The position numbers were made by a program, and so were the translations under genes. The notes beneath the pieces are model-generated. The model searched no databases. It was not told where the DNA came from and was given only the letters and a program-made list of their open reading frames with translations. This document shows positions 1,622 through 53,251 of a DNA stretch of 64,000 bases, in pieces; positions within the stretch are counted from its first letter, which is position 1, and every line of letters starts with the position of its first letter. This DNA is from Thermovibrio guaymasensis (GTDB lineage: Bacteria > Aquificota > Aquificia > Desulfurobacteriales > Desulfurobacteriaceae). The stretch spans positions 62,001-126,000 of the forward strand of contig NZ_RBIE01000001.1 in NCBI RefSeq assembly GCF_003633715.1. The letters run 5' to 3'.

Positions 1622-1633
1622 AGAGGAACTGCC

Positions 1634-2101
1634 ATGCTTGAGGATGTAAAGGTGAAAGTAAAGGAAACTTTCGGTTTTGAAAGCGAACCCTACGATACGA
1701 ACGTTCTGTTGATCCACGCAGAGAGGAACTCTGTTAGAAAGCTCCTTGAGTTCCTTAAAGAACAAGGTTTTAACTACCCTCATACTGTTTCGGTGGTTGA
1801 TTACATTCCTAAGGGTGAAGGCTTTCAGGTTAACTACATTTTAGAGAACTTATCTGAGAAGAAGTTTGTAATGGTTAGGGTTAATCTGACTGAGAGTGAC
1901 TTAACAGTTCCCAGTGTCCACGACATATTTCCTCCACTTCAACCCCATGAGAGGGAAGCCTGGGAGATGTTCGGTATTGAGTTCATAGGAAATCCAAGGC
2001 TTGAAGTTATGCTCCTTCCAGATTGGGCTGAAGGTTTATACCCCTTGAGGAAATCTTACGACTTTAAGAAGCACAGAAAGCCTTCTAAGGAGAAAAAGTG
2101 A
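1634..2101 (+). CDS. nuoC: NADH-quinone oxidoreductase subunit C (30-kDa subunit)
   Basis: Peripheral-arm subunit (155 aa) that scaffolds NuoB and NuoD. The family signature is seen near the C-terminus as EREAWEMFGIEFIGNPRLE followed by LLPDW and PLRKSYDFKK. It is a stand-alone NuoC, not a NuoCD fusion. It ends in GTGATG, where its TGA overlaps the nuoD start region. It has no cofactor ligands of its own, as is usual for the family. Confidence 0.93.
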   Translation: MLEDVKVKVKETFGFESEPYDTNVLLIHAERNSVRKLLEFLKEQGFNYPHTVSVVDYIPKGEGFQVNYILENLSEKKFVMVRVNLTESDLTVPSVHDIFPPLQPHEREAWEMFGIEFIGNPRLEVMLLPDWAEGLYPLRKSYDFKKHRKPSKEKK

Positions 2102-3270: not shown

Positions 3271-3280
3271 GAGGATTAAA

Positions 3281-4225: not shown

Positions 4226-4240
4226 AAGGAGAGGTAGCCG

Positions 4241-4765
4241 ATGGAAATTAAAGATACTCTCTCTTTTCCGTTAGAGACTACGAAAAAAGTTATTAGGGTA
4301 GCAAAGGCTCTCCTTGCACCTAAGGCTACTGAGATTTGGTGGGACAAGGGAGTTAAGAGGGAGCTCCACTACAGGGGAAAGCACGTTATCAAGGTAGAGC
4401 TCTGCATAGGTTGTGGAATGTGCGCAAGAGCCTGTCCTGTTAAGTGTATAGATATGATCCCAACCGGGGTTAAAAAACCCCGTGCGGTTCCGAAAGTTAG
4501 GGCAAACGAGTGCATATTCTGCGGTTTATGTGAGGATGCATGTCCTACGAAACCTCAAAAGGCTATTCAGCTAACCGATGAGTACAGAATGATCGTTGAG
4601 CCTGGAACCTGGGATAACCTCAGTCAGTTCATATTTGAGCCTGAAAACTTAGATGAGGCCATTGAGAAGGCGAAGAAGATGGAGGAGCTCATAGAGAAGA
4701 AAAAGCAGGAGGCTTTAAAGAAGAAAATGGAGGCTGAGAAGAAGAGTAAGGGAGAGGAGAAATGA
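4241..4765 (+). CDS. nuoI: NADH-quinone oxidoreductase subunit I (two [4Fe-4S] ferredoxin-like)
   Basis: Holds clusters N6a and N6b in the connecting module. Two ferredoxin motifs are visible: CIGCGMCARACP (Cys55, 58, 61, 65) with a further Cys69, and CIFCGLCEDACP (Cys91, 94, 97, 101). After about residue 140 the protein runs into a charged Lys/Glu helix (EKKKQEALKKKMEAEKK) of some 35 residues. In a complex without NuoEFG the electron donor must dock near this subunit. A role of the tail in docking a ferredoxin or other donor is speculation. Confidence 0.94.
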   Translation: MEIKDTLSFPLETTKKVIRVAKALLAPKATEIWWDKGVKRELHYRGKHVIKVELCIGCGMCARACPVKCIDMIPTGVKKPRAVPKVRANECIFCGLCEDACPTKPQKAIQLTDEYRMIVEPGTWDNLSQFIFEPENLDEAIEKAKKMEELIEKKKQEALKKKMEAEKKSKGEEK

Positions 4766-5244
4766 TGGGAAACGTCTACTTCTGGCTTATATACGTAATA
4801 ATAATCGCTTCAGCTATAGTGGCTCTAGAGGCAACGTCACTTCTTTGGGCGGCGATTTCGTTTGTCGTTCTTCTCTCTGAAATTGCCCTTGTTTACTTTG
4901 GTTTAAATATGCCGGTTCTCGGTGGCGTTCAGTTAGCAATTTACGCAGGTGGAGTAACTATCCTCGTTCTCTTTGCGATAATGATGGTAGGTGAAAGTTA
5001 CAGAAAACCACCTGGGAAAGCAGTTAGAGCAATAGTTATTAGTCTATCTCTCCTTGCTGTTGGGGTGCTTTTCAGCTTTGCCAGTGCGATAGATACTTTT
5101 CCCTTTAAAGCTTACTCAACACAGTTTCTCGGAACGATTTTTGTTGAGAAATACTCATTCTTTACCATCGTCCTCGGTTTCATTGTTGCAGCACTCCTTT
5201 ACATGGGTAACGCCATAATTACTAAGAAGAGGGAGGCCGGCTAA
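4765..5244 (+). CDS. nuoJ: NADH-quinone oxidoreductase subunit J
   Basis: Membrane subunit with five hydrophobic segments. The family motif GGVQLAIYAGGVTILVLFAIMM (third helix, which changes conformation during the complex I cycle) is recognisable. Two adjacent ATG codons exist at 4762 and 4765. I prefer the second because it sits 5 rather than 2 bases from AGGAG; it begins directly after the nuoI stop. The 159 aa is normal, and the nuoK start follows one base after its stop. Confidence 0.93.
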   Translation: MGNVYFWLIYVIIIASAIVALEATSLLWAAISFVVLLSEIALVYFGLNMPVLGGVQLAIYAGGVTILVLFAIMMVGESYRKPPGKAVRAIVISLSLLAVGVLFSFASAIDTFPFKAYSTQFLGTIFVEKYSFFTIVLGFIVAALLYMGNAIITKKREAG

Positions 5245-5245
5245 T

Positions 5246-5554
5246 ATGCTTTTAGAAGCAGACGTTCATGCTTACTTGTTCCTCTCATTTTCTTTACTTG
5301 CCGTAGGAGTTTACGGGCTTCTTTCAAGGAAGTCTGTTATTAGAATGCTGTTTGCAGTTGAGATGATAATCAACGCTGCAAACATAAACCTTGCCATTTT
5401 CTCAGCCCAGAGGAACGTTGACGGTGAGATCTTTGCCTTCTTCACCATAGGCCTTGCGGCCCTTGAAGCTGCCGTTGGACTTGCGATAGTAATAGTCTTT
5501 TACAAGAGATTTGGAGAAGTTATTCCTTCAAAAATAAGGAACTTGAGGTGGTAG
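5246..5554 (+). CDS. nuoK: NADH-quinone oxidoreductase subunit K
   Basis: Small three-helix antiporter-like subunit (102 aa). The two buried glutamates needed for proton transfer are visible, in MLFAVEMIINAANINL and in AALEAAVGLAIVIVFYK. The start follows GGAGGCCGGC with suitable spacing. The gene overlaps the region that carries the nuoL ribosome-binding site. Length and motifs match the family. Confidence 0.95.
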   Translation: MLLEADVHAYLFLSFSLLAVGVYGLLSRKSVIRMLFAVEMIINAANINLAIFSAQRNVDGEIFAFFTIGLAALEAAVGLAIVIVFYKRFGEVIPSKIRNLRW

Positions 5555-5556
5555 GG

Positions 5557-7389
5557 ATGGAGAGTATTGTATACCTGACGATAGCTCTTTTCTTCGTAGG
5601 AAGTATCCTTGCCTTCCTTGTAGGTCACTTCTTTGAGAAGTGGTCTTCTTTCTGGGTTGCGGCTGCAACAGGCCTTTTAGGTTTCATCATGACCTGTTTC
5701 ATTGCTTTAAACCTTCATGAGCACCCAATCGTTCATCACTTTAACTGGTTCTCTTTCGGTTCCTTTAACGTTCCGTTGGGAATTTACGTTGATAACCTTG
5801 CAGTCATAATGGCCTTAATCGCTACTGGAATCGGTTTCCTTGATATTGTCTTTTCAAGGGGTTATATGGAGGAGGATGAGTCCCCTGAAAGGTACTACTT
5901 TGAGAAGCTGTTCTTTATAGGTTCAATGGTCGGCCTCGTCTTCGTGAGTAATTTACTCGGTCTTTACATCTTCTGGGAAGGTGTTGGACTCTGTTCATAC
6001 CTATTAATTGGTTACTGGTATTGGAAGAAGAGTGCTGCAGAGGCGGCACTTAAAGCCTTTGTGATGACACGTTTTGGTGACGTCTTTATGCTAGCAGGGA
6101 TAATTGTTGCATGGGTTTTACTTGGAACTATTGAATTTCAAGATTTAAACGCACTTGCAGTTGCAGGTGCTTTTAGCGTTAAGTTGGGACTTTTAATTTC
6201 AATCCTCCTCTTCATCGGTGCAATTGGTAAGTCTGCCCAGTTCCCCCTCTTCCCGTGGTTACTTGATGCTATGGAAGGTCCTACTACAGTATCAGCCCTT
6301 ATTCACGCTGCTACTATGGTTAATGCCGGTGTTTATATGGTTGCAAGGCTCTTCCCATTCTTTGATTACTCCCACGCTTTAATAGTTGTTGCCTTTGTAG
6401 GTGCTGTTTCTGCCTTTATTGCCGCTACTGGAGCTCTTGCCCATACGGAGATTAAGAAGATTCTTGCCTTCTCTACGATGGAACACCTTGCCCTTATGTT
6501 TGTTGCAATTGGCGTTGGCTCTGCCGTTGCGGGAGTATTTCACCTTATGAACCATGCAATATTTAAGGCCTTACTCTTCCTAGCTGCTGGTGCAGTTATC
6601 CACATGACCCACCATACTAAAGATGCTTTTAAGCTTGGAGGTCTATTAAAGTACATGCCCCAAACGGGTATTCTGTTCTTAATAGGTATTCTCGCACTTG
6701 CGGGAGTTCCTCCCTTTAACGGATTCTTCAGTAAGGACTGGATTTTGGCTTCAGTCTATTCCTACGGTAATCCAATAATTTTCTGGCTTACATTTATAGC
6801 TGCTGTCCTTTGTATAGCTTATGGTTTTAGACTCTGGTTTGTCGTCTTTACTGGAGAGCCTTCAGAGAACTCAAAACACGCAAGAGAGGCTTACCCAATA
6901 ATGCTTGTTCCTCTTTACGTTTTAGCTTCAATGACGATACTCATTCCCTTCTTTAAGGAAAAGATTATTCACTTTATAGCAGGTGGAGAGGTTCATGAGC
7001 CCCTGTTCCTTAACCTCCTTGTTGCAACCCTCACCGTTATGTTTGTCCTGTTTGGGATAGTTTTCCTCATTTACTACAAGAGGGTACTTTCAACTGCAAA
7101 GTTCCTTGCCCATCCCCTTGGAAAGGGTATAAACCAGTTCCTTTACAACGGCTGGTACGTCGATGCGGCTATAAAGTGGATATGCAGGAACGTCTTTTAC
7201 GGCTCAATTGCAAAGGCTGTTGAGTGGATAGATGTAAACGTTGTTGATGGAGCAGTTAACGGCACTGCAAAGCTTTCCCTTGCCTGCTGGGATAGGTGCA
7301 GGAAGGTACAGACCGGAGATCTTGTAGATTACCTAACTTACTTTGTCGCAGGTGTAGTGACGCTGATCCTTATCATTCTCTTTATTTAG
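5557..7389 (+). CDS. nuoL: NADH-quinone oxidoreductase subunit L
   Basis: Distal proton-pumping subunit (610 aa) with the long lateral helix at its C-terminus. Key residues are retained: the glutamate in FWEGVGLCSYLLIGYW, the lysine in IGKSAQFPLFPWLLDAMEGP, the histidine-rich HAATMVNAG helix and the lysine in NHAIFKALLFL. I use the ATG at 5557, which is 5 bases after AGGTGG. A GTG at 5548 would overlap nuoK. Unlike NuoD, this subunit looks entirely canonical, so proton pumping is probably intact. Confidence 0.95.
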   Translation: MESIVYLTIALFFVGSILAFLVGHFFEKWSSFWVAAATGLLGFIMTCFIALNLHEHPIVHHFNWFSFGSFNVPLGIYVDNLAVIMALIATGIGFLDIVFSRGYMEEDESPERYYFEKLFFIGSMVGLVFVSNLLGLYIFWEGVGLCSYLLIGYWYWKKSAAEAALKAFVMTRFGDVFMLAGIIVAWVLLGTIEFQDLNALAVAGAFSVKLGLLISILLFIGAIGKSAQFPLFPWLLDAMEGPTTVSALIHAATMVNAGVYMVARLFPFFDYSHALIVVAFVGAVSAFIAATGALAHTEIKKILAFSTMEHLALMFVAIGVGSAVAGVFHLMNHAIFKALLFLAAGAVIHMTHHTKDAFKLGGLLKYMPQTGILFLIGILALAGVPPFNGFFSKDWILASVYSYGNPIIFWLTFIAAVLCIAYGFRLWFVVFTGEPSENSKHAREAYPIMLVPLYVLASMTILIPFFKEKIIHFIAGGEVHEPLFLNLLVATLTVMFVLFGIVFLIYYKRVLSTAKFLAHPLGKGINQFLYNGWYVDAAIKWICRNVFYGSIAKAVEWIDVNVVDGAVNGTAKLSLACWDRCRKVQTGDLVDYLTYFVAGVVTLILIILFI

Positions 7390-7398
7390 GAGGAGTGG

Positions 7399-8841
7399 AT
7401 GGTTCTACTGAGCATGATACTAATTCCTGTTATAGTTGCACCCTTTGCCTGGTTCCTTGAGAGGGTAAATAGGGATATTCCAAAGTACTTATCCCTTGCC
7501 GTTGGAATTTTCCTTTCCATCTGTACGGCTTACCTGATAGCTAAATATCCAGGTAACGGTTTTGCCTTTAAAGAGTTCTATACCATTTACCCTCCATTTG
7601 ACTTTAACCTACACCTTGCTGTAGATGGAATTTCCCTTCTACTCCTTGGAGTTACCGCTTTCTTGGCGATAACTGTTACCCTTTCATCCTGGCACGTTGA
7701 GAGGCCGGGTGCTTACTTCTTCTTAATTCTTGTTTTCTTGGGGCCTATGGTCGGCGTTTTCTCTTCCCTAAACCTCCTTTGGTTCTTTATCTTCTGGGAA
7801 TTTACTCTAGTTCCTATGTTTTTCCACATAGGTATATGGGGAGCTGAGAACAGAATTTACGCTGCTATGAAATTCTTTATCTACACCCACTTGGCAAGTA
7901 TATTCCTCCTTCTCGGAATCATCGTTCTCTATCTGAACGCCCATACGTTTGAGTTTGAAAAGCTTGTTGGAATAAACCTAGATCCTGGAATTGCAAAGCT
8001 TATCTGGATACTAATGTTTATAGGTTTTGCAGTTAAGATGCCGGTTGTTCCTTTCCACACTTGGCTTCCCGATGCACACGTTCAGGCTCCTTCTCCTATT
8101 TCTGTCTTCCTTGCAGGTCTCCTTCTGAAGATGGGTGCATACGGTCTTTTAAGGTGGGAGATTTTCGTTTTTCCACAGGTGAGCAAGTTCTTCGCTCCGT
8201 TAATGGCAACCCTTGCCGTTTTAACGATATTCTATGCAGGCTTTAGAGCACTTGCTGAGGACCACATTAAGAGAATGGTTGCCTACTCCTCAATTAACCA
8301 TATGGGCTTTGTTCTACTGGCTCTTGCTTCACTAACTGCTGCCGGTATCTCTGCTGCAGTTTATGAGATGCTTGGACACGCTTTAGTAATTTCTCTCCTA
8401 TTTATGGTTGCTGGATATATCCACCATAAAACTCATACCTGGTACATCTCAGAGCTCGGCGGTCTTATGAAGAGAATCCCTCTTTTAATGACTATGTTCG
8501 TTATCGGCGTTCTTGCAGCTGTAGGACTTCCTGGAACTGCAGGCTTTGTAGGAGAGTTTACAGTTATGCTTGCAGCCTTTGATTATTGGGGCTGGATTAT
8601 GATTATCGTACCTTTTGCTAGTGCTCTCTCTGCAGGTTTCTTTATGTGGATGCTCCAGAGAGCAGTTTTTGGTCCTTTAAAGGAGAGCTTGAAGGAGTTA
8701 AAACTTACAGAACTTCCTCTCATTGAAAATATTCCACTGGCGATGTACATAGTTGCCTTTATCTTTGTCGGACTAATTCCTTCAGTCGTTTTTAACCTAT
8801 ATAACCCTGTTGTAAATACTTTTGCACAACTCTTTAAGTAG
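7399..8841 (+). CDS. nuoM: NADH-quinone oxidoreductase subunit M
   Basis: Antiporter-like proton-pumping subunit (480 aa, about 14 helices). It shows FWEFTLVPMFFHIGIWG with the conserved Glu, KMPVVPFHTWLPDAHVQAP and the pumping-helix lysine in AGLLLKMGAYGLL. It starts at an ATG 9 bases after the nuoL stop, behind AGGAGG. Membrane arm order L-M-N is standard. Confidence 0.95.
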   Translation: MVLLSMILIPVIVAPFAWFLERVNRDIPKYLSLAVGIFLSICTAYLIAKYPGNGFAFKEFYTIYPPFDFNLHLAVDGISLLLLGVTAFLAITVTLSSWHVERPGAYFFLILVFLGPMVGVFSSLNLLWFFIFWEFTLVPMFFHIGIWGAENRIYAAMKFFIYTHLASIFLLLGIIVLYLNAHTFEFEKLVGINLDPGIAKLIWILMFIGFAVKMPVVPFHTWLPDAHVQAPSPISVFLAGLLLKMGAYGLLRWEIFVFPQVSKFFAPLMATLAVLTIFYAGFRALAEDHIKRMVAYSSINHMGFVLLALASLTAAGISAAVYEMLGHALVISLLFMVAGYIHHKTHTWYISELGGLMKRIPLLMTMFVIGVLAAVGLPGTAGFVGEFTVMLAAFDYWGWIMIIVPFASALSAGFFMWMLQRAVFGPLKESLKELKLTELPLIENIPLAMYIVAFIFVGLIPSVVFNLYNPVVNTFAQLFK

Positions 8842-8851
8842 GGGGTAACAG

Positions 8852-10264
8852 GTGAATATTAACTTCTTAACGGCAGTTATGCTTTTAACTTTAACTGGGG
8901 CTTTTCTTCCCGTAATTAACAGGTTGTTTAGAATATCCACCCTCCTTGGAGCTGTAATTTCAACCTTTGGCTACTTACTGGCCCTTTTCTTCGTTTTGAT
9001 ATCGGACCAGGGGAGGACCATACTTAACTCGTTCTTTACAACGGATGAAGTTTCTAGACTTATTGGAGTGCTTATCTTAGTGGCGTCTTGGATGTTGATG
9101 CTTGTCGTTTATTGGATTGTCCAGAAGGACAAGTTTGTCAATGAGCTCATTGGATCGGTAATGATTTCAACTGCCGGAGCTCTCCTTTTAATATGCGCTA
9201 ATAACTTCGTTTCCCTTACCATTGCTATGGAACTTATGACTATGCCGACTTACCTTATGGTTCTCTTTTCCTTTGATGAAAAGTCAATTGAAGCTGGTGT
9301 AAAGTACTTCTTTAACGGAGCTCTTGCCGTTGGTTTTATACTCTTTGGAGTCTCAATTCTCTATGGATTGACAGGGGAGTTTACCTTTAGAGCTCTCGTT
9401 GAGAACCTCTTCAGTGATCCCCTCGTGGCCCTTGCAGGAATTTTTATACTTGCAGGGTTTGGCTTTAAAATTACTGCCTTTCCCTTTCACTTCTGGGGAC
9501 CAGACGTTTACGATGGAACCTGTCCAGGAGTTGCTGCCCTTTTAACAGGTATTTCAAAGAGTGCTGCCTTTATAGGTCTTATGAGAGTTGTCTTTGAAGC
9601 AATTCCTGTTGTTGCTCCTCACTTTAGTTTTATCTTTGCCCTTATCGCTGCAGTTACTATGACTGTTGGAAACTTACTTGCCCTTGCCCAAAAGAGGGTT
9701 TCAAGGATCCTTGCTTACTCTTCTGTTGCCCATGCTGGATATACGCTGGTGGCTTTTGCAGCCCTTTCAGTTCCTGTGAGTATTACAGGAATTCTTTACC
9801 ACTCTGCAGCTTACGCCTTTATGAAGACTGCAGCTTTTCTATCCTTTGCCGCTCTCCTCTACATCTGGGGTGCAAGGACGATGGATGACTATAAAGGGCT
9901 CGGTAAAAGGGAACCCATCCTTGCCGCCCTCTTCCTTATTTTCCTCCTTTCCCTTGCAGGGGTTCCTCCTATGGCGGGATTTATAAGTAAGGTATTCGTA
10001 TTTACAGCTGCTGTAGATGCTGGTATGACGTGGCTTGCTCTCTTAGGTCTCCTTAACAGTGCCTTTTCCGTTGCTTACTACATCTGGATTGCAAAGCAGA
10101 TGTACCTGGAGGAGCCAACAATTGAAAAGCCGATTAATGACACAAGTAGGCTATGGGTAGTTATTCCTCTGGCTGTCATGGCCGTTATCTTGATAGTTCT
10201 CGGTATCTATATTAACCCCGTTGTTGATGCATCCCTACACTACGCAGCAAAGGTCGGATTTTAA
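8852..10264 (+). CDS. nuoN: NADH-quinone oxidoreductase subunit N
   Basis: Third antiporter-like pumping subunit (470 aa) and the last gene of the nuo operon. Motifs are AMELMTMPTYLMVL with the conserved Glu and FGFKITAFPFHFWGPDVYDG with the buried Lys and His. The start is GTG at 8852 behind GGGGGTAACAG. A cluster of small inverted repeats follows the stop, which may mark the operon end. With this gene the operon holds A-B-C-D-H-I-J-K-L-M-N and no E, F or G. Confidence 0.94.
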   Translation: MNINFLTAVMLLTLTGAFLPVINRLFRISTLLGAVISTFGYLLALFFVLISDQGRTILNSFFTTDEVSRLIGVLILVASWMLMLVVYWIVQKDKFVNELIGSVMISTAGALLLICANNFVSLTIAMELMTMPTYLMVLFSFDEKSIEAGVKYFFNGALAVGFILFGVSILYGLTGEFTFRALVENLFSDPLVALAGIFILAGFGFKITAFPFHFWGPDVYDGTCPGVAALLTGISKSAAFIGLMRVVFEAIPVVAPHFSFIFALIAAVTMTVGNLLALAQKRVSRILAYSSVAHAGYTLVAFAALSVPVSITGILYHSAAYAFMKTAAFLSFAALLYIWGARTMDDYKGLGKREPILAALFLIFLLSLAGVPPMAGFISKVFVFTAAVDAGMTWLALLGLLNSAFSVAYYIWIAKQMYLEEPTIEKPINDTSRLWVVIPLAVMAVILIVLGIYINPVVDASLHYAAKVGF

Positions 10265-14675: not shown

Positions 14676-15748
14676 GTAGACTTCCAAAACTAAACATAAA
14701 AGGTTTGGTTCCTAAGTACCCGATAATTCAAGGTGGTATGGGAGCAAAGGTCTCTCTCCACAGACTTGCCTCTGCAGTTGCTAACGCAGGAGGAATAGGA
14801 GTAATATCTGCCGTCCTTCTCCACGAGAAGGATCGCTCAAAACCTATGAAAACTACCTGTAAAGGAATTCCCGTTGAGGAAGTCGGTTTAAAACCCTACC
14901 ACTACGCCCACGAACTTGCCCAAGAGATTAAGAAAGCTAAGGAGCTTGCTCCTAATGGGATAATCGGCGTTAACATTATGTACGCCCTTACCCACTTTTA
15001 CGAACTCCTTATGACTGCTATAGATGCAGGGGCAGACCTTATTATTCAAGGTGCAGGTTTTGGAAAGGATGTTTTTAAGATCTGTAATACTTTTGATATG
15101 CCGCTAATTGAGATTGTCTCTACCCCTAAAGGCGCAAAACTCTCAGAGAGATTGGGTGCTGCTGCTGTGATAGTTGAGAGTGGCGAGGCTGGGGGACACC
15201 TTGGAACAATGGAGAGTTTGTGGGACGTTCTCCCGAAGATAGTTGAGTCGGTTAACATTCCCGTAATAGCTGCCGGTGGAATATTTGACGGTAAAGATAT
15301 GGCAAGGGCTTTTGAAATTGGAGCAAAGGGCGTTCAAATTGCAACAAGGTTTATTGCTACTTACGAGTGTGACGTTCATCAGAACTTTAAAGATTACATA
15401 ATTAAGGCAAAGGCTGAGGACTCAATTTACATAAAGAGTCCCGTTGGAATGCCCGCCCATGCGGTTAGGAACCCGTTTACTGAGAGGTTGGAGAGGGAAG
15501 GTAAGATTCCCCATAAGTGTCCCTTCAACTGTCTCAAGACCTGTTCTGGGGAGGATTCAATCTACTGTATAGCTGAGGTTCTCCTTCGCTCGGCCGCCGG
15601 GGATACTGAGAAGGGACTTGTATTCTCTGGAAGTAACGTTGGAAGAGTTAATAGGATGTACTCGGTGAAAGAGTTAATTGAGGAACTTGTTAGAGAGTGT
15701 GAAGAGGAGCTTAAGAGAAAGAACCTAAACTTTGGGGAGGAAGTATGA
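14672..15748 (+). CDS. NAD(P)H-dependent flavin oxidoreductase, nitronate monooxygenase/FabK type
   Basis: A TIM-barrel FMN enzyme (358 aa). The NMO/FabK family is shown by YPIIQGGMGAKVS, NAGGIGVISA, AVIVESGEAGGHLG, VIAAGGIFDGKDMARA and GAKGVQIATRF. It could be a nitronate monooxygenase or a FabK-type enoyl-ACP reductase; the sequence alone does not decide. Odd is a cysteine cluster near residue 285, CPFNCLKTCSGEDSIYC, spaced Cx3Cx3Cx8C, which could bind a metal or cluster. It overlaps its neighbours on both sides, so it is transcribed with them. Confidence 0.82.
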   Translation: MSRLPKLNIKGLVPKYPIIQGGMGAKVSLHRLASAVANAGGIGVISAVLLHEKDRSKPMKTTCKGIPVEEVGLKPYHYAHELAQEIKKAKELAPNGIIGVNIMYALTHFYELLMTAIDAGADLIIQGAGFGKDVFKICNTFDMPLIEIVSTPKGAKLSERLGAAAVIVESGEAGGHLGTMESLWDVLPKIVESVNIPVIAAGGIFDGKDMARAFEIGAKGVQIATRFIATYECDVHQNFKDYIIKAKAEDSIYIKSPVGMPAHAVRNPFTERLEREGKIPHKCPFNCLKTCSGEDSIYCIAEVLLRSAAGDTEKGLVFSGSNVGRVNRMYSVKELIEELVRECEEELKRKNLNFGEEV

Positions 15749-16443
15749 GGAAGCTAATTCTCCTTATTCCTTTGAGCTTAATAGCTTTTAGCTGTGTTCA
15801 AAATCAACCAAACACTAACGTTAGTCAGCTTCAGTCAAAGGTACAGGAGTTAAGCGTAAAGGTTGACTCTACCGATAAGAAAGTTTCCTCTCTAGAGGAG
15901 AGAGTTGCAAAGCTTGAAGATAAGACAGCTGCAAACGAGGAGCAGATCTATCAGATAAAGAAGGACTTGGAGGAGATAAAAAAGACCCTTTCCCAAATAA
16001 CAGTATCCTCTCAACCGTACCCTTCAGGTGAAAAGGGAAAGTCTAAAAGGCAGGCCGTTGTTCAGTACGGTCCTAAGGACCTTTACAGGGAAGCCTTTAA
16101 CGCTATGGAAGCCGGAGATTTTGATAGGGCAAAGGAGCTCTTCCAGCAGCTAGTTAGTCAGTATCCGGATAGTGACCTTGCAGACAACGCCTTCTACTGG
16201 ATAGGGGAAATATACTATTCCCACAACGACTATGAGACTGCAGCAGATTACTTCCAGAGAGTGATTGATAAGTACCCTGAAGGGAATAAAGTTCCTGCTG
16301 CGATGCTTAAACTTGCCCTCTGCTATAAAGGCATGAACGAGATAGACAGGGCAAAGGAGCTCTTAAAAGAGGTAATTGAGAAGTACCCTGGAACTCCCGA
16401 AGCTGGAATAGCGAAGGTGAAACTAATGGAGCTTGAGAGGTAG
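15745..16443 (+). CDS. CpoB/YbgF-like periplasmic TPR lipoprotein
   Basis: The protein (232 aa) begins with a lipoprotein signal ending in LIAFSC (lipid-modified Cys about residue 17). A coiled coil follows (about 29-88) and then TPR units (about 112-230) with repeated YxxAxxxxxxGDFDRAKELFQQL and FYWIGEIYY patterns. This layout matches YbgF/CpoB, which coordinates the Tol-Pal system and peptidoglycan synthesis during division. The Tol genes are not in the window. The start follows GGGGAGGAAGT and overlaps the preceding stop. Confidence 0.8.
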   Translation: MRKLILLIPLSLIAFSCVQNQPNTNVSQLQSKVQELSVKVDSTDKKVSSLEERVAKLEDKTAANEEQIYQIKKDLEEIKKTLSQITVSSQPYPSGEKGKSKRQAVVQYGPKDLYREAFNAMEAGDFDRAKELFQQLVSQYPDSDLADNAFYWIGEIYYSHNDYETAADYFQRVIDKYPEGNKVPAAMLKLALCYKGMNEIDRAKELLKEVIEKYPGTPEAGIAKVKLMELER

Positions 16444-37091: not shown

Positions 37092-38858
37092 ATGGTACTT
37101 TTAGACCTGCTTCTAGGGTTTAATTCTAGTTTGAAGGGAAAGGGGGATTTTCTAGAAGAGAACAAGGTAGGGTTTAGTTCTAAAGTTTCAGATTTCCAAT
37201 TCCTTTTTTTAAAGGAACTTTCTAATTTGAAGAGTTCCGAAATTTCATTCTTTAATATGAAAGAAAGTCCAAATCTTTTGAAGAAGTCTGTTAGTTTAGG
37301 TTTAAAAGATCTTTATTTAGGTATTGAAGAAGCTAAGGGAAAGGTTGAGAAAAATAAAAAAGTAGATATAAAGTTTGCAAATTTACTTCCTTTCTCTAAT
37401 ATTAAAGGTGATGTTTTAATGGAAAAAAATAAAACACCTTTTCGTTTAGGAAAAAAGAAGGTTGATAAAACTGATAAAACTTTTGATTTGAATTCAAAAA
37501 GGAATTACTATAGAAAAAGTAAACCTCTTTTTATTTTTAATTTTAGAAGAACTTCTATTAGGATTTTATCAAATGCTAAAAGTTTTTACGGGCTGAAAAA
37601 TGTTGTCAGGGAAAGTCAAAAAGATAAAAGAATTGATGAGAAGGTCTTTTTCAAACCAGGAAAAAGAAGGAAAAAGGGTCAAGTTTTAAGTTCTATTAAG
37701 TTGCAATCCTTTTTAGTAGGATTTCCTAGTTTAGGAGGGATGGTTCCGAGAAAATCTGTCATTCCAAAGGTAATTGATAGTAATGAAAATCTAAAAAATA
37801 ACTCTAAAACTGAAACAGATCTTAAGTCTAAAAACTTAGGAAATTTTAATAAGCTTTCCCTTTTAAAAGGGAAAGATAAAGCTTACTTTCCTGTTTCTGT
37901 AAAAGAGTTAAATAAAAGTGAAAGTGATGGAATTTCTTATGTGACGAAAAAATTTCAGATAAATTCTAGTGATAGATTAAAAGTGGAAAAATTTGATCTT
38001 GCTAACCAAAAGCAGAATGAAAAGGTTACTGTTCCTTCAAATCATGATCTTGATTTTAAAATTGAGGATGATATATCTTTGCTTACAGAAAGAAAAGGAA
38101 GAAAGTTTATTGAGTCTAAATTTCCTTCAAATGGCAAAGAATTAATAAATAAGCAAAATATTAAAGATTCGGAAAAAAGTTTAAATAGTGAGATTTTACT
38201 ACAACAAAAAGTAAAAGTTCAATTAGAGTTAGAGTCTAAGAAAGAAAAAGTTCGGTCTTCTAAACTAAATAAAGGGAAGTTAGAAAAAATTTTAATACAT
38301 TCCAATTCTAAACTGCTATCTAACTTAGGTAGTGAACGCTTTTCTAAAGTGGAGGATCAAGTTACTCAAAGTGATATTGCTAGCTCTGTGATGACTAGTA
38401 ATACTGGTAACTTCGAAACGGTGACTAAGCTTAAGCTTCAACTTCCTGAAGTCAAACTAGAAGGAGTTTCTCATTATAGGGAATATGGAAAAACAGTAGT
38501 TTCTTTACTTTCTCCTCAGGAACAAAGTGGCCACGGTTCCTCAGATTTTCGTGATGGTTTTAGTTCTTCTGATAGTTTTGAAAACAGGAAAAATGAGCTT
38601 CCTGTTCCTAAGCATGTAAATAGTAGTTTTCAGAATCTTGTCATAAGAAATGAAGATATGGCTATGAGACTTTCCTTTAACAGGGCCGGAATATTAAACC
38701 TCTCTCTCAGGCTTTCTGAAAGTTACACTCTAGAACCTTCTTTGATTGAGGACATTCGCTCAATTATCCGTTCTTCAGGTTTTACTCCAGGAAAAGTTTA
38801 CTTGAAGGTTAAAAGTAAAGGGGAAGCAAAAGAAAGAACAACGGAGTTGAAGGTTTGA
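37092..38858 (+). CDS. fliK: Probable flagellar hook-length control protein (FliK-like)
   Basis: A 588-aa protein with no globular domain in its first 510 residues, which are rich in Lys, Ser, Asn and Phe. Only the last 70 residues look conserved: MAMRLSFNRAGILNLSLRL, then a two-helix segment and KVYLKVKSKGE, which fits the FliK C-terminal hook domain. Position between fliA and flgB, and a long disordered ruler-like region, support the call. Bases 37092-38640 are markedly more AT-rich than the neighbours and use AAA/TTT codons heavily; the C-terminal part returns to the local composition. Confidence 0.65.
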   Translation: MVLLDLLLGFNSSLKGKGDFLEENKVGFSSKVSDFQFLFLKELSNLKSSEISFFNMKESPNLLKKSVSLGLKDLYLGIEEAKGKVEKNKKVDIKFANLLPFSNIKGDVLMEKNKTPFRLGKKKVDKTDKTFDLNSKRNYYRKSKPLFIFNFRRTSIRILSNAKSFYGLKNVVRESQKDKRIDEKVFFKPGKRRKKGQVLSSIKLQSFLVGFPSLGGMVPRKSVIPKVIDSNENLKNNSKTETDLKSKNLGNFNKLSLLKGKDKAYFPVSVKELNKSESDGISYVTKKFQINSSDRLKVEKFDLANQKQNEKVTVPSNHDLDFKIEDDISLLTERKGRKFIESKFPSNGKELINKQNIKDSEKSLNSEILLQQKVKVQLELESKKEKVRSSKLNKGKLEKILIHSNSKLLSNLGSERFSKVEDQVTQSDIASSVMTSNTGNFETVTKLKLQLPEVKLEGVSHYREYGKTVVSLLSPQEQSGHGSSDFRDGFSSSDSFENRKNELPVPKHVNSSFQNLVIRNEDMAMRLSFNRAGILNLSLRLSESYTLEPSLIEDIRSIIRSSGFTPGKVYLKVKSKGEAKERTTELKV

Positions 38859-40801
38859 GGTGGTTAGTTTTTTTTATCTTTCTCTTTATCTCAACCAGTT
38901 CGTTTGGAGGTTATGAAGTAGATAAGGATTGGAAAATTTATCAGAAGGGACTGCGCCAGTATAGAATCGGTTCCTACTCAACTGCCCTTAACTACTTTCT
39001 TGAACTATTAAAGCCCGATTCAAAGTACTATAAGGATGCCCTGTTGATGCTTTCAAAAACTTACTATGCTATTGGTAAAAAGACAGGTCTTAAAAAGTAC
39101 CTCTGGCAGGCATTAAACTACCTACAGTTATACTTTATAGAAGTTGGGGAGGGAGAGCTCCCTTGGGATTACTACTACACAAAAGCTAGAATCTACGAAG
39201 CTCTTTCCTTCTACGAACAGGCCCTTGCCGTTTATAGAGTTGCCTTTTTAAAGGCAAAGAGTAAGGAAGAGAAAGTTAAGACAACTGTTGGGATAATTAG
39301 GACTGCAGTTTGGGTTAGAAGGCCTGATATAGTAGAAGAGTACTTCATTTTGATTAGTACAGAGAGAAACCTTACCAAAGAGGAAGAGAAAGAAATTACC
39401 TTTATAAAAGGTTTAGCTCTCTTCTCTCAGGGTAAGTATCAAGAAGCATTTCCTTATTTTTTCAAACTGTATAAGGAGTACGAGGATTATTTAATAGATA
39501 ATCCGTCTTACTACCTTCTAGTTGCAGAAAACATTTATAGGTTAGGTAAGTATACTGTTGCTGAGCACCTGTTTAGGAGGATTATCAGCTTTACAAAGGA
39601 TAAGGAAGTTATTAGGAGAGCGATTTTAAGGTTGGGAGATATTGAGGTTAAAAGGGGAAATGATAAGTTAGCCTTTGTTTATTACTACTCTGTTATAAGG
39701 GATTACCCCGATTCTCTTGAGGCTGTAGTTGCAAGGTTGAAGATAATTCCGATGATGGAAAAGCCTGAAATAAAGTATAGGGCTCTTTTAACAAAGGACA
39801 AAGCCTTTAAAGACCCTATAAAGTATATAGCGACCGTTTTAGTCAACTTTAGGACCACCTATGCCGGGATTTACGCCCTTGCAGATTTAGGGTATTTAGT
39901 TTTTAAACTGGATTCTCCTGAAATGCCGTTTAAAAGGCTAACTTGGGAGGTCTCCCTTATCTTTCCCGAGGAGGTAAAGTATGAACAGAGGGAGTTTATT
40001 AGATACCTTTGGGAACCCTATCTTTTGAAACTCCCTTCAGATAGAGGCTGTTCTCTTTACCGTTCAAATCCCAGGTTCTTTCAAGAACTCTTTGGAAGGA
40101 AAGTTCTCCTTAAGTTTGCCTCAGACCTTAAACACTGTAATATGAGAAGATTAAGGATAGAACTTCTGTCCTTCATCCTTAGAAAGTGGAAAGATGATGA
40201 TAGTAAGGTAATGATGGCAAGGGCCTTATTTGAAACTAGGGATTTTTCTGAGGCTCTAAAAGTTTTAGAGACTGTTAAGGATAAGAACAGGTGCGATTAT
40301 CTAATTCTTAAGTCGGAACTTGGTATTTTCTTATCTTTGGATCTAAAGAGTTTTAATAAGTTAATAACTAAATGTAAGAAGGATAGCCTTGAAATTCCAA
40401 GTATAGCTATTTATTATCTTTCAGAAATTGGTAAGATTGAATTGGCATTCAAAGAATTTGTTTCCTATAAAAAGGCTTTGGTTAATGAGTATGAAAAGGA
40501 GCTTGTTGTGAAGGCAGCTCTTAATAAGTTAGTTGAAAAGTCTATCTTGGAAGATAAGTATAGGGTAGCTTACGAAGTTTCAAAGGCTCTCTATGAAAGA
40601 GGTTATAGGAACTGTCTAATTGGAAGTTATCTCCTCATTTCAGCTGTTAGATTAGGGAAACTATCAGAGGCCAAGAAGGTTTATACTACGATAGATGGGT
40701 GTATTGACTCTATGGCGTCTCTTTCTAAAACGGTTTATCAAGATACTCTTCTTGAGGAGGAGTTGAAAGATGGGGCTCTTTCATCAACTGAAGCCAATTG
40801 A
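38855..40801 (+). CDS. TPR-repeat exported protein in the flagellar cluster
   Basis: A 648-aa protein with a signal peptide (MRWLVFFIFLFISTSSFGG) and no lipobox, so probably periplasmic. Tetratricopeptide-like helices run through about residues 25-300 (YQKGLRQYRIGSYSTALNYF, YYTKARIYEALSFYEQALAVY, AEHLFRRIISF) and further helical repeats to the end. Only a few cysteines are present. It starts at TTG overlapping the fliK-like stop and its end overlaps flgB by 32 bases, so it is locked into the flagellar operon. I do not recognise an orthologue. A structural or scaffold role in the periplasmic motor is a guess from position. Confidence 0.78.
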   Translation: MRWLVFFIFLFISTSSFGGYEVDKDWKIYQKGLRQYRIGSYSTALNYFLELLKPDSKYYKDALLMLSKTYYAIGKKTGLKKYLWQALNYLQLYFIEVGEGELPWDYYYTKARIYEALSFYEQALAVYRVAFLKAKSKEEKVKTTVGIIRTAVWVRRPDIVEEYFILISTERNLTKEEEKEITFIKGLALFSQGKYQEAFPYFFKLYKEYEDYLIDNPSYYLLVAENIYRLGKYTVAEHLFRRIISFTKDKEVIRRAILRLGDIEVKRGNDKLAFVYYYSVIRDYPDSLEAVVARLKIIPMMEKPEIKYRALLTKDKAFKDPIKYIATVLVNFRTTYAGIYALADLGYLVFKLDSPEMPFKRLTWEVSLIFPEEVKYEQREFIRYLWEPYLLKLPSDRGCSLYRSNPRFFQELFGRKVLLKFASDLKHCNMRRLRIELLSFILRKWKDDDSKVMMARALFETRDFSEALKVLETVKDKNRCDYLILKSELGIFLSLDLKSFNKLITKCKKDSLEIPSIAIYYLSEIGKIELAFKEFVSYKKALVNEYEKELVVKAALNKLVEKSILEDKYRVAYEVSKALYERGYRNCLIGSYLLISAVRLGKLSEAKKVYTTIDGCIDSMASLSKTVYQDTLLEEELKDGALSSTEAN

Positions 40802-41144
40802 AGAGGGAATAAACTTCTTTTACAGGCGTTCGGAAGTTATTCAAAGTAACATAGCTAACGTTGATACTCCTTTCTATAAGCCGAAGGATTTAGTCTTTGA
40901 GAGAGAGCTTGATAAGAGTTTAAAGTTGAAGAGGACAGACCCCCGTCATATTGATCCTTACGGTGGCGAGAAGGTTACTTTTAAGGAAGTAACTCTTGAC
41001 GAGATATCCGGCTACGATGGAAATAGAGTGAACCTTGATAAAGAACTTGGGAAGCTTGCAGAAACTGCCATAATGGCAAGAACCCTCAATGAAACTTTGA
41101 GGAAGGAGATAGGGAAACTTAAACTGGTTATTGGGGGTAGATAA
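40770..41144 (+). CDS. flgB: Flagellar proximal rod protein FlgB
   Basis: Rod protein (124 aa) next to the MS ring. The N-terminal rod motif is RSEVIQSNIANVDTPFYKPKD, and the C-terminal helix has NVNLDKE-like VNLDKELGKLAETAIM. The ATG at 40770 follows GAGGAGGAG within the previous gene. The flgB-flgC-fliE-fliF-fliH-fliI order is the common one. Confidence 0.94.
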   Translation: MGLFHQLKPIEEGINFFYRRSEVIQSNIANVDTPFYKPKDLVFERELDKSLKLKRTDPRHIDPYGGEKVTFKEVTLDEISGYDGNRVNLDKELGKLAETAIMARTLNETLRKEIGKLKLVIGGR

Positions 41145-41551
41145 TGATATTTAAGGGGCTTGAAGTTTCCCTTTCTGGAATGCTTGTTCAGAGAGTAAGG
41201 ATTGATGTTGCTTCAAGTAACCTTGCCAACTCAAACTCTGTTGATGAAAACGGAAGACCTTATACTAGAAAAGTTCCTGTTTTTGAGTCTGTTTTGATTA
41301 AAGAAGGTGAAGTTCCTCTTTATAGGGTAAAGGTTAAAGAAATTAAAGAAGATCCATCTCCCTATAGACTGAAGTACGATCCTGGGAATCCTCTTGCAGA
41401 TAGTAAAGGTTACGTTAAACTTCCCAACGTTGATCCTCTGAGGGAGATGGTTGACGTAATGAGCGCTATGAGGAGTTACGAAGCTAACCTTACGGCTTTT
41501 AATACAGCTAAGGGGCTTCTTTTAAATGCAATAGATATACTTAAGGCTTGA
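41144..41551 (+). CDS. flgC: Flagellar proximal rod protein FlgC
   Basis: Rod protein (135 aa). N-terminal LEVSLSGMLVQRVRIDVASSNLANSNS and C-terminal YVKLPNVDPLREMVDVMSAMRSYEANLTAFNTAK are typical of FlgC. It overlaps the flgB stop by one base (TAATG). It ends 12 bases before fliE. Confidence 0.94.
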   Translation: MIFKGLEVSLSGMLVQRVRIDVASSNLANSNSVDENGRPYTRKVPVFESVLIKEGEVPLYRVKVKEIKEDPSPYRLKYDPGNPLADSKGYVKLPNVDPLREMVDVMSAMRSYEANLTAFNTAKGLLLNAIDILKA

Positions 41552-41563
41552 GGGAGGAGTTAG

Positions 41564-41854
41564 ATGAGGGTTGAAAGTTCCAAATTCCTTTTTGTTCCTA
41601 GCCTATCGGTGGAAAATGAAAAGGATAGTGAAAATTCTACTTTTGAAAAAGTAATGAAGGATTTTCTAAATGAAGTAAACTCTCAACAGCTTGAGGCGAG
41701 GGAGGTAGAGAAGAAACTGTCTGAAGGTAAAATAAAGAACTTTGAAGAAGCTCTCTTTACGGTAGAGAAGGCAGAACTCTCCCTCAGGCTCTTAGTTGAG
41801 ATGAGGAATAAAGCCCTTGAAAGCTATCAGGAAATTATGAGAATGCAGGTATAA
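41564..41854 (+). CDS. fliE: Flagellar hook-basal body protein FliE
   Basis: Small adaptor (96 aa) between the MS ring and rod. The C-terminal half fits FliE: DFLNEVNSQQLEAREVEKKLSEG, FTVEKAELSLRLLVEMRNKALESYQEIMRMQV. The ATG follows GAGGGAGGAG. The N-terminal 30 residues are variable, as is common. Confidence 0.92.
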   Translation: MRVESSKFLFVPSLSVENEKDSENSTFEKVMKDFLNEVNSQQLEAREVEKKLSEGKIKNFEEALFTVEKAELSLRLLVEMRNKALESYQEIMRMQV

Positions 41855-50380: not shown

Positions 50381-51416
50381 GGATCCTTCAAAGACGGAAA
50401 AGGCGACCCCACGGCGGCGCCAGAAGGCACGGGAAGAGGGTCAAGTACTAAAGAGTCAAGACGTTCCGATAGCAGCAACTCTATTCTTTACGGCAATCTT
50501 CCTCTACTTTTACTTGCCTTACTTATATAGAAATTTGCAGGCTCTCTTTTCCTACTCTTTTTCAGAGTCTTCTTACCTTCAGCTTTCTTACATGTTAAAG
50601 CTCTTTTCTTACAAGTTTTTTTTACTAATCTTGCCCATTTTCGTTTCCCTTTTGTTTGTTGGTGTCTTTTCAAACCTTGTTCAGTTCGGTTTTCTCTTTA
50701 CAGTTAAACCTCTCATTCCGAAGCTGGACAACATTAATCCTGTAAAAGGTTTAGGTAGAGTCTTTTCCTTAAAGACCTTCTTTGAGAGTGTAAAAAATAC
50801 CCTAAAGCTGTCTGTTGCTGCCGCTGTAGGTTATTTTACTGTAAAGTTTGCTCTTTCTGGTTTCTACTCTCTTCCCCTCTTACCCCTTCCCTCTCAAATA
50901 AATATGTTTGCAAAGTGGATTGTCGTCCTTTTTTTCGTTTTTGGTCTCCTGTCAATTCCCGTTGCAGCCATTGATTTCCTCTACAGGCGTTGGGAGTACG
51001 AGGAGAACCTGAAGATGAGTGTTCAAGAAGTTAAAGAGGAGAGGAAGCAGTATGAGGGACATCCTTTAGTCAAGTCTGCAATAAGGAAGAAGCAGAGAGA
51101 GATTGCAATGAGGAGGATGATGGCTGAAGTACCTAAAGCTGACGTCGTAATTACAAACCCTACCCACTATGCTGTTGCCCTAAAGTATGAAAGGGGGAAG
51201 ATGTACGCTCCTAAAGTTGTGGCTAAAGGAGTTGATAGGGTAGCTTTAAGGATTAAAGAGATTGCCATTGAAAGTGGAGTTCCTATTGAGGAGAACCCTG
51301 AACTGGCAAGGGCTCTTTATTCTTCGTGCGATATCGGAGATTACATACCTGAAGAGTTCTATAAAGTTGTCGCTAAGATCCTGGCTAGGATTTATCGGAG
51401 TAAGAGCTCTCTTTAA
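50373..51416 (+). CDS. flhB: Flagellar biosynthesis protein FlhB
   Basis: Substrate-specificity switch of the export apparatus (347 aa). N-terminal DPSKTEKATPRRRQKAREEG, four helices, then the cytosolic domain with the autocleavage site NPTH in ADVVITNPTHYAVALKY. The start is GTG 50373. Its last 32 bases overlap tail-to-tail with the MotE-like gene on the other strand. Confidence 0.96.
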   Translation: MAKDPSKTEKATPRRRQKAREEGQVLKSQDVPIAATLFFTAIFLYFYLPYLYRNLQALFSYSFSESSYLQLSYMLKLFSYKFFLLILPIFVSLLFVGVFSNLVQFGFLFTVKPLIPKLDNINPVKGLGRVFSLKTFFESVKNTLKLSVAAAVGYFTVKFALSGFYSLPLLPLPSQINMFAKWIVVLFFVFGLLSIPVAAIDFLYRRWEYEENLKMSVQEVKEERKQYEGHPLVKSAIRKKQREIAMRRMMAEVPKADVVITNPTHYAVALKYERGKMYAPKVVAKGVDRVALRIKEIAIESGVPIEENPELARALYSSCDIGDYIPEEFYKVVAKILARIYRSKSSL

Positions 51417-51861
51417 TGGAAGTTAAAATTTTCACTATTTGATTAACAACTTTAGGGTCAACGTAGTTTAGAATTTCTCCTGCTTTTCTGGATTTCATGT
51501 TATAGAGGATATATGCAGCTTCTTTGGGGTCCGTGAAGGATGAGATTTTTTGGCCTGCAAGTTCGGGATCCATTTTTGAAAACATTTGGGCAAGTTTCTT
51601 GTACCTCTCAGCTTCTACCTCTTTGATTCTCCTTTCAAATTCCTCTCTTTCCTTCTTTAGTTTCTCCCTCTCTTTCTTTATTTCTTCTAGTAACTTTTTA
51701 TTCTCCTCTATTAGTTTTTTGACCTCTTGTTTTAATTTGGTTAACCTCTCTATTTCCTTTTTTGCTTCTTTGAATTGAACCTTTCCCTGAGCGTAAGAGG
51801 GAAAGTTCATAGCATTAAGTACGATCAACAGAGTAAAGAGCTTGGTAAATAAACCTTTCAT
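51385..51861 (-). CDS. MotE-like periplasmic coiled-coil protein (MgtE_N-type C-terminus)
   Basis: A 158-aa exported protein: signal peptide LFTLLIVLNAMNFPSYAQG, a Lys/Glu coiled coil (about 28-90), then a helical MgtE_N-like domain with LAQMFSKMDPELAGQKISSFTDPKEAAYILYNMKSRKAGEIL split over residues 89-130. This is the MotE layout, a periplasmic chaperone of the MotC stator factor, often next to fliJ. It follows fliJ with a 47-base overlap and ends inside the flhB 3' end. Confidence 0.78.
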   Translation of the reverse strand: MKGLFTKLFTLLIVLNAMNFPSYAQGKVQFKEAKKEIERLTKLKQEVKKLIEENKKLLEEIKKEREKLKKEREEFERRIKEVEAERYKKLAQMFSKMDPELAGQKISSFTDPKEAAYILYNMKSRKAGEILNYVDPKVVNQIVKILTSIKESSYSDKS

Positions 51862-52222
51862 TTAAAACCTCATTAACTCGTTTCTCCTTAAGCTCTTTCC
51901 TCTTAAGGAGTTCTTTGACGAGTTTTACCTCTCCTCTTAGTCTACCTACATCCTCTCTTTTCTTATCTATCTCTAATGAAAGTCCTTTTAAACTCTCCTT
52001 TAGTTTTTCTTTCTCCTTTAAAAGCCTCTTCGTTTCCTCCTGTATTAAGGCAAATTGTAGTACAGATTCAGGTGTCATAGATTTAAGGCAGGAAATTTTC
52101 CTGTTGACCTCCTCAATTTCAAGTTTCAGTTCTTTTTCTTTTGCTAATAGCATGTTAAGTCTTTCCCTTTCCTTTTGTAGTTCCCTTTCCTTGATATCAA
52201 TAACTTTACTTAGCCCTTTCAT
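51815..52222 (-). CDS. fliJ: Flagellar export protein FliJ
   Basis: A 135-aa two-helix coiled-coil protein that couples FliI to the export gate. The sequence is almost entirely Lys/Glu/Leu heptads with one break around SCLKSMTPES (about residue 45-54). Identity rests on this architecture and on co-location with PilZ, motE and flagellar genes; FliJ proteins have few conserved residues. It starts directly after the PilZ gene stop. Its usual place after fliI is empty, which supports the call. Confidence 0.72.
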   Translation of the reverse strand: MKGLSKVIDIKERELQKERERLNMLLAKEKELKLEIEEVNRKISCLKSMTPESVLQFALIQEETKRLLKEKEKLKESLKGLSLEIDKKREDVGRLRGEVKLVKELLKRKELKEKRVNEVLNERFIYQALYSVDRT

Positions 52223-53251
52223 TTATCCCCTATTTTTAAAGACAAGTTGTGCAAGTTTTTTCTGCTCTTCCCTTACAAAGTCATGGATAAATTTCTGCTG
52301 CTCTGGTTTTATATCTTCGTACTTAACTCCATAACAGGTTGAAGTCCTTCTCTTATAGATATTTACTACAGTTGCTTTTAGTTTAAGTTCTCTACCTTTA
52401 AGGTTAAACTTTAGTGTAATTTCAGTATAGGGATTAAGCTCTTGAGGGAAGTTTTGGTGTGGAATGCAGACTTTAGCTCCGCCAGCTGAAATATCAATGA
52501 TTTCTCCTTTAATCCACTCTACTTTGTCCTCCTCCTTGTTGTAGATACCAACGTCTGCCGGGATTTCAACCTCTACCCTTGCGTATTCTCTCCTTTGATA
52601 CCTTGTAAGCTCAAAAGTATGGGGAACTTGAATTATCATTCTTCCATTTTCGAAGAAAACTTTTTCAACAACTGATTCAAACTTGTAAATACCGTCCCCT
52701 TTCCTTATAAAGGAAATAGTTACTTTAGAACCTTCTAAATTTGGAGGCTGTTTTTTATCAATCACTGCCCAGTACATATACTTTTCGTCTTTATCAAAGA
52801 GTGCAATTTCATAGCTACCTTTATTTGGAGTGTAGAGTTTTGCAGGTTGGAATAACTCTATATCCTTTGTACTAACAAGAGGAACAAAGGGAGGAAGGTA
52901 GTCAAAGCCCAGTTTCATTCTCATATCTTGAATTAGACTCTCGTCAGCTTGGGGATTTTCCTTTAGAAAAAGGTCGACAACTTTCTCAAAGGGAGATTTG
53001 AACTCTAAAGTTAAGAAAGGATCTCTTCCAAGTTTTAAAGAGTACTCCCACAGTATTTGAGCTTCCTCTTCTGTTAAACCTCTTTCAAGGGCTTCTTTAA
53101 AGAATGACTTTTTAATGTTGACTTTCTTGAGGTATTCCCTTAGAAGCCCTACTAGAATGAGAAAGAGTATAAAGACCGTTAGAATTAGTATAAATAAAAA
53201 TATTGTACTACTATCTGCACGTGGAATTCTTAAAAAACTTAAGTCTCTCAT
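52223..53251 (-). CDS. Membrane-anchored PilZ-domain protein (c-di-GMP receptor)
   Basis: A 342-aa protein with an N-terminal transmembrane helix (about 16-38). A mostly helical region follows (to about 95). A YcgR-N-like beta domain comes next, and a C-terminal PilZ domain has RYQRREYARV (the RxxxR c-di-GMP contact) and IDISAGGAKVCIP (the D/NxSxxG contact). Soluble YcgR proteins brake the motor by binding FliG or MotA; a membrane anchor is less usual. It is the first of three minus-strand genes with fliJ and a motE-like gene, so a flagellar role is likely. Confidence 0.85.
   Translation of the reverse strand: MRDLSFLRIPRADSSTIFLFILILTVFILFLILVGLLREYLKKVNIKKSFFKEALERGLTEEEAQILWEYSLKLGRDPFLTLEFKSPFEKVVDLFLKENPQADESLIQDMRMKLGFDYLPPFVPLVSTKDIELFQPAKLYTPNKGSYEIALFDKDEKYMYWAVIDKKQPPNLEGSKVTISFIRKGDGIYKFESVVEKVFFENGRMIIQVPHTFELTRYQRREYARVEVEIPADVGIYNKEEDKVEWIKGEIIDISAGGAKVCIPHQNFPQELNPYTEITLKFNLKGRELKLKATVVNIYKRRTSTCYGVKYEDIKPEQQKFIHDFVREEQKKLAQLVFKNRG

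Follow-up and report, generated by a model that had tools for sequence, protein, structure and literature searches.

What would a large, exported repeat protein do inside the flagellar operon of a thermophilic bacterium? The question is posed by a gene of Thermovibrio guaymasensis that lies in the window, that is, the whole stretch of 64,000 nucleotides (nt) analysed here (contig NZ_RBIE01000001.1, positions 62,001-126,000, forward strand), and that encodes a protein of 648 amino acids (aa) built of tetratricopeptide repeats (TPR). An earlier note on this DNA had described the open reading frame (ORF) as overlapping both a fliK-like gene and flgB, and it is present as described (Table 1): its first 4 nt (TTGA) are also the last four of the fliK-like ORF, and the ATG of flgB, at 40770, lies 32 nt inside it. 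The note had also held that no standard flagellar gene has this profile, a claim that finds no support, since exported flagellar TPR proteins are known: PflA in Campylobacterota, MotC and MotK in alpha-proteobacteria, and FlcA and FlcB in Borrelia. We propose that the protein is probably a periplasmic spoke of the flagellar motor, which would be the partner of an E-ring of the FlgY type and would act in the manner of PflA or MotC.

Pfam TPR models exceed their cut-offs in the window protein (e.g. TPR_16 at E 9.4e-12 and TPR_14 at 4.9e-10), and its N-terminus resembles a signal peptide (N-terminal and transmembrane-like segments were judged throughout by Kyte-Doolittle hydropathy, not by SignalP). 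Its relatives were surveyed in 61 genomes of the window's class, Aquificia, which fall into families f1 (Desulfurobacteriaceae), f2, f3 (Hydrogenothermaceae) and f4 (probably the Aquificaceae). Alignment A2 joins the window to 28 of 34 related loci (29 rows; L036, L039, L046, L050, L066 and L068 were left out), and alignment A4 holds 16 of the 18 diverged f4 orthologs. The N-terminus is hydrophobic enough to exceed the threshold in 28 of the 29 A2 rows and in all 16 A4 rows, and a transmembrane-like stretch beyond this signal was found in none of these 45 family members. The AlphaFold2 model (29 sequences; predicted local distance difference test, pLDDT, 90.6; predicted template modelling score, pTM, 0.78) has helices from residue 24 to 640 and no strand, and predicts with high confidence an all-helical TPR-type solenoid. 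The description of the protein as exported and TPR-built is thus borne out by hydropathy, Pfam and the model. Six cysteines lie in three pairs spaced by 27-29 residues (399/428, 480/507 and 587/616), the last two pairs being kept in every A2 row, and Cys 399 and Cys 428 in 27 rows each. Up to three predicted disulfides probably lock the solenoid in this lineage, and would fit an exported protein; they do not seem to be needed throughout the class, because 12 of the 18 f4 orthologs are free of cysteine (the other six have one to four, not matched by column). Conservation is highest around residues 61-130 and 191-260, which are candidate contact faces. The gene is fragmented in L066, a Persephonella contig, and in G010 (L016) a split in it adjoins unread bases.

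The association of this gene with flagella is the second line of evidence. The order TPR-flgB-flgC-fliE is kept in all 30 f1 and f3 loci (L001-L030, of which L001 comes from the genome of the window itself), so that it is not due to chance, and the view that the gene is locked inside the flagellar operon holds. Relatives in f1, for instance L004 and L005, likewise have a TTG as the first start, with a 4-nt overlap. A TPR-like frame of 593-615 aa stands directly before flgB in 18 of the 18 f4 loci fetched, and 17 of these reach E 0.01 or below against the profile of the family, each E-value being that of a search confined to the ORFs of a single locus (L144 matches profile A1 at E 0.01; L139 has no match to it and was counted by its position and its placement in A4). 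With hhalign, the f4 orthologs match A2 at 99.3% (E 7.7e-21, 569 columns), which is above the level of a non-flagellar TPR control. The gene is therefore not a one-off, as the search of related thermophiles suggested in the earlier note has brought out: orthologs stand directly before flgB in three families (f1, f3 and the strongly diverged f4), and elsewhere in f2. There, the TPR gene is preceded by another ORF of fliK-like build and followed by a gene other than flgB, and in G022 it lies on a different contig from flgB. In the f2 loci L031 (8628-10319) and L032 (4605-6299), a gene that by eye looks like GGDEF/EAL follows the TPR gene in the place of flgB.

A single-sequence search of the 61 genomes found the full-length protein in f1, f2 and f3. 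An early impression that f4 lacks the gene was ruled out by the diverged ortholog in all 18 flgB-centred loci, and the f4 matches of about 850 aa returned by that search were rejected as family members, as they belong to another TPR family that occurs also in non-flagellates. Families f3 and f4 share a second conserved TPR protein, 850-950 aa long and signal-like at its start (L147-L159), which the non-flagellates G032 and G038 carry as well. FlhA is present in 52 of the 61 genomes, and the TPR family in 51 of these 52 (f1 20/20, f2 1/1, f3 12/12, f4 18/19). The earlier note had named orthologs in non-flagellate genomes as a refutation of its idea: among the nine FlhA-negative ones the family occurs only in G023, which is 64% complete, and six FlhA-negative f4 genomes, 99% complete, carry no member of it and at most short matches to other TPR proteins.

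The same pattern would be expected of a periplasmic helper of rod assembly, such as a chaperone or placement factor for FlgB, FlgC and FliE that is no lasting part of the motor, since this would explain the co-occurrence with flagella equally well. The tight overlap with flgB, the fixed place before flgB-flgC-fliE in f1 and f3 and before flgB in f4, and the fact that TPR proteins often hold other proteins speak for such a role. Against it, rods in other bacteria are not known to need a helper of this kind, and the f2 gene of G022 is not on the contig of flgB. Those flagellar TPR proteins that have been studied in other bacteria belong to the motor (PMC13023049, PMC12222027). We regard a rod helper as unlikely.

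The spoke proposal gives the protein a partner. A second gene of the window encodes a small protein of the FlgY/MotE/FlbB type (Table 1), whose model (one sequence, pLDDT 87.3) shows a helix of 75 residues and a small helical head behind a signal-like start; it fits the signal or anchor, long helix and ARM-like head that define the type, and a long helix with a head is the build reported for the E-ring proteins FlgY, MotE and FlbB (PMC13023049). Pfam MgtE_N matches it at 8.9e-5, below cut-off, and the NCBIfam FlbB model at 0.0027, far below cut-off; MgtE_N is over cut-off in the FlgY-type proteins of the f4 relatives L216, L217 and L218. Alignment A5 joins the window protein to 19 of 20 relatives. 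With a profile of 20 FlgY-type proteins and a limit of E 1e-5, 52 of the 61 genomes give a match, the identical 52 that have FlhA, with weaker matches in f4 (1e-7 to 1e-19); in ten of the ten f4 loci read, the matching protein joins a coiled coil to a FlgY-type head. These heads ruled out FliG as the identity of the f4 frames in these loci. In nine of the ten loci (L210-L216, L218 and L219), the FlgY-type part makes up the second half of one longer frame (265-335 aa), where it follows a coiled coil, possibly FliJ, and a hydrophobic segment; these frames are either fusions or two in-frame genes read through.

FlgY-type proteins are reported to have TPR partners, namely PflA, MotC or MotK, and FlcB (PMC13023049). 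The window protein resembles MotC of Sinorhizobium and MotK of Cereibacter as a periplasmic TPR protein with a FlgY/MotE-type partner, and the FlcA/FlcB proteins with FlbB of Borrelia as a TPR collar protein with a FlgY-type ring protein (PMC13023049). Unlike MotK, it shows no AMIN domain, and its likeness to MotC and MotK is one of kind rather than of compared sequences; the NCBIfam FlcA model gives no match to it at E up to 1. The motC gene presumably lies beside fliK. Like PflA, the protein is exported, forms a long TPR solenoid and has a FlgY-type partner encoded in the genome. Unlike PflA (790 aa), it measures about 650 aa and has neither the N-terminal beta-sandwich (DUF7494) nor the PflB-docking linker, and unlike PflB it has no transmembrane segment after the signal. 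A PflA-like protein of a Bdellovibrio flagellar operon is likewise built of TPR, over about 1000 residues; the proposal for it is a small ring at the inner membrane, with no further accessory rings (PMC5758724).

Put together, the operon that encodes the first rod proteins would also supply the TPR protein of the window, which would reach the periplasm and fold into a long solenoid, and copies of it would join the motor as radial spokes ringing the MS-ring. The inner contact may be an E-ring of the FlgY-type protein, as suggested by the pairs PflA-FlgY in Campylobacter and MotC-MotE in Sinorhizobium, and the outer end may meet periplasmic MotB and FliL and keep the stators in place without a PflB rim. 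In PflA, it is the N-terminal domain (DUF7494) together with the linker that holds PflB (PMC12222027). Of the suggestion that the protein is a periplasmic scaffold that widens the motor, the scaffold stays the best explanation, and the widening finds no support here; the beta-sandwich and linker with which PflA holds the PflB rim are missing. The protein probably works like PflA. In a 2025 preprint that looks across bacteria, about 52% of flagellated species are credited with candidate spokes, picked as TPR proteins encoded close to flagellar genes (PMC11870540), and the window protein has the properties used there: at least three TPRs, a place near flagellar genes, FlgY in the genome and no enzyme domain. 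As such proteins are already treated as candidate spokes, the protein is of a known type and not a new kind; judged from sequence, it would represent a new and widespread family of this type, for which the genetic case seems solid. Within their reach, our literature searches brought up no study dedicated to this TPR protein of Aquificota and none in which an Aquificota motor had been imaged.

How far the resemblance to PflA goes has to be weighed separately. A Foldseek search of the TPR model against 350,542 PDB chains ranked 9hmf_K, PflA of C. jejuni, first (E 4.4e-9), and hhalign matched A2 with a 20-sequence PflA profile at 97.2-97.4% over 500-537 columns of the TPR part of PflA (alignment A3 covers 20 of 32 PflA loci). 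In the window's own genome, the TPR gene is the sole match of the PflA profile (E 8.0e-6). Several observations weigh against the spoke proposal. The Foldseek lead is small, eukaryotic TPR proteins reaching 3.0e-8, and 9hmf_K superposes with TM-scores of 0.31/0.27 and a root-mean-square deviation of 25.5; PflA is not among the 50 entries listed in the VIA-align re-alignment. A2 matches a non-flagellar long TPR family at 98.2% (f3 version) and 97.7% (f4 version), at least the level of PflA, these two control sets being one family and not independent, as they match each other over 846 columns. The f4 orthologs match PflA at 36-51%, and the PflA profile in Aquificota genomes often matches other TPR proteins equally well or better. 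The f4 genome G034 has FlhA and the FlgY-type gene without the TPR gene; as a flgB match over cut-off is lacking there too, the cause may be either a gap in the assembly or a true loss. FlgY marks exactly the genomes that FlhA marks, so that the co-occurrence speaks for a link with flagella but is not by itself enough to establish one with FlgY, and the proposed TPR-FlgY pairing would draw on the literature rather than on the occurrence pattern.

Since the non-flagellar family scores this high, the sequence likeness to PflA is best read as TPR background. An early hint of PflA had come from profile matches to nuoN-adjacent proteins (E 1.4e-8, 2.4e-4 and 6.2e-4 in L078, L087 and L094), and membership in PflA was withdrawn after the non-flagellar control and a reciprocal PflA-profile search. 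That the protein is a true PflA ortholog minus the N-terminal PflB-docking domain therefore seems improbable, even if PflA heads the Foldseek ranking, none of 298 Campylobacterota genomes has both proteins, and PMC11870540 counts a PflA homolog and no PflB in Nitratiruptor. Apart from the background level of likeness, PflA adjoins nuoN in 31 of the 32 loci scanned (L078 and L098 being one place), whereas the TPR family adjoins flgB in f1, f3, f4 and the Campylobacterota copies; DUF7494 is over cut-off in none of the 61 class genomes (the PflA of L078 scores 8.5e-35), is not in the window protein, and is not among the 25 of 29 Pfam families listed for A2; and replacement of a whole flagellar system would give the same one-or-other pattern.

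This pattern was seen in the Campylobacterota, which account for nine of the 34 related loci (Nitratiruptor and others). Searches of 298 genomes, in which the best three to four candidates per genome were scored so that absences are not final, found the full-length family in nine genomes of the Nitratiruptor type, all FlhA-positive and with the order TPR-flgB-flgC-fliE-fliF. Canonical PflA, scored with a single query (which matches the PflA of PDB 9hmf_K at 6.1e-64), was found in 234, none of the nine carriers among them. A hand comparison of the lists left 20 of the 262 FlhA-positive genomes with neither protein; in 19 of these the FlhA score is weaker than in the rest, and the single query may simply have failed to pick up PflA there. 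In a tree made without two f2 rows and one identical row, the Campylobacterota rows fall into a single clade (85/99); the placement of f2 rows inside this group in an earlier tree (branch 3.72) was read as long-branch attraction and rejected. A single clade is consistent with a transfer already proposed in the literature, in which a Persephonella-like donor passed its entire flagellar system to Nitratiruptor (PMC9321776). The absence of PflB, FlgP and FlgQ is taken here from papers on Nitratiruptor (PMC9321776, PMC11870540); a PflA homolog without PflB, as reported for that genus, is consistent with a spoke carrying no rim. A strongly diverged member (branch 1.36) stands before flgB in L061, a contig labelled Sulfuricurvum, and is either a further transfer or a binning error.

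That the protein could be a general envelope TPR protein of the YbgF/CpoB or BamD kind, merely sited in the flagellar operon, is very hard to credit, since its best NCBIfam scores (YbgF, BatC and BamD, labels that we rejected) are all far below cut-offs, the window has a YbgF gene of its own (15745-16443, 126.1 bits versus a cut-off of 90.1), and the six 99%-complete non-flagellate genomes lack the family. Sequence searches of the PDB gave generic TPR proteins only, at best YbgF 2xev_A (0.025 with the single sequence, 1.7e-7 with the profile), and were set aside.

Table 1. Coordinates in the window of the proposed spoke gene, its operon neighbours and the candidate partner
Feature	Position	Strand	Basis
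Exported TPR protein, proposed motor spoke	38855..40801	+	648 aa, TTG start; Pfam, hydropathy, structure model
Signal-peptide-like N-terminus, about residues 1-19	38855..38911	+	Hydropathy 2.48 at residue 4; boundary by eye
Upstream overlapping gene, fliK-like by position	37092..38858	+	No flagellar Pfam match
flgB, rod protein	40770..41144	+	NCBIfam FlgB 72.3 bits, cut-off 59.05
flgC	41144..41551	+	Named by sequence and order, no family search; neighbour in 30/30 loci
fliE	41564..41854	+	Named by sequence and order, no family search; neighbour in 30/30 loci
FlgY/MotE/FlbB-type E-ring protein, 158 aa, proposed spoke partner	51385..51861	-	Domain matches, model, profile co-occurrence

Among the neighbours, the upstream gene keeps the fliK-like name by position only and not by domain content, as no flagellar Pfam family was found in the window copy or in five of five relatives scanned. 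Its C-terminal part is one family in the f1, f3 and Campylobacterota copies (profile matches at E 3e-4 to 1e-24 in a set of 39), with weak matches in f4 and f2. Because the likeness of the f2 ORF before the TPR gene to this C-terminus is weak (E 0.03 to 3.2), the upstream link in f2 is drawn from position and build. Near the FlgY-type gene, Pfam and NCBIfam gave no confirmation of FliJ for the gene at 51815-52222, and a PilZ protein (52223-53251, minus strand) has an N-terminal transmembrane-like segment by eye; the PilZ match recurs in 13 of the 14 f1 loci fetched. Further upstream, positions 819-10264 hold a nuo (complex I) cluster, identified by eye, with no PflA-like gene after nuoN.

A wider view can be offered only tentatively. 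The FlgY E-ring and a rim-less TPR spoke might form a minimal two-part scaffold that holds the stators without a PflB rim or a FlgP/FlgQ disk, would be a core flagellar part across the class, would move between phyla with the whole operon, and would have arisen or diverged independently of PflA. If the spoke proposal is true, the motor of a deep-branching group of thermophiles has spokes and no rim, which would bear on whether E-ring and spokes are ancestral, and rim and disks later additions. It would also give a likely job to a large gene of the flagellar operon that our Pfam and NCBIfam searches name only as TPR, and would offer a scaffold pair from thermophiles for structural work.

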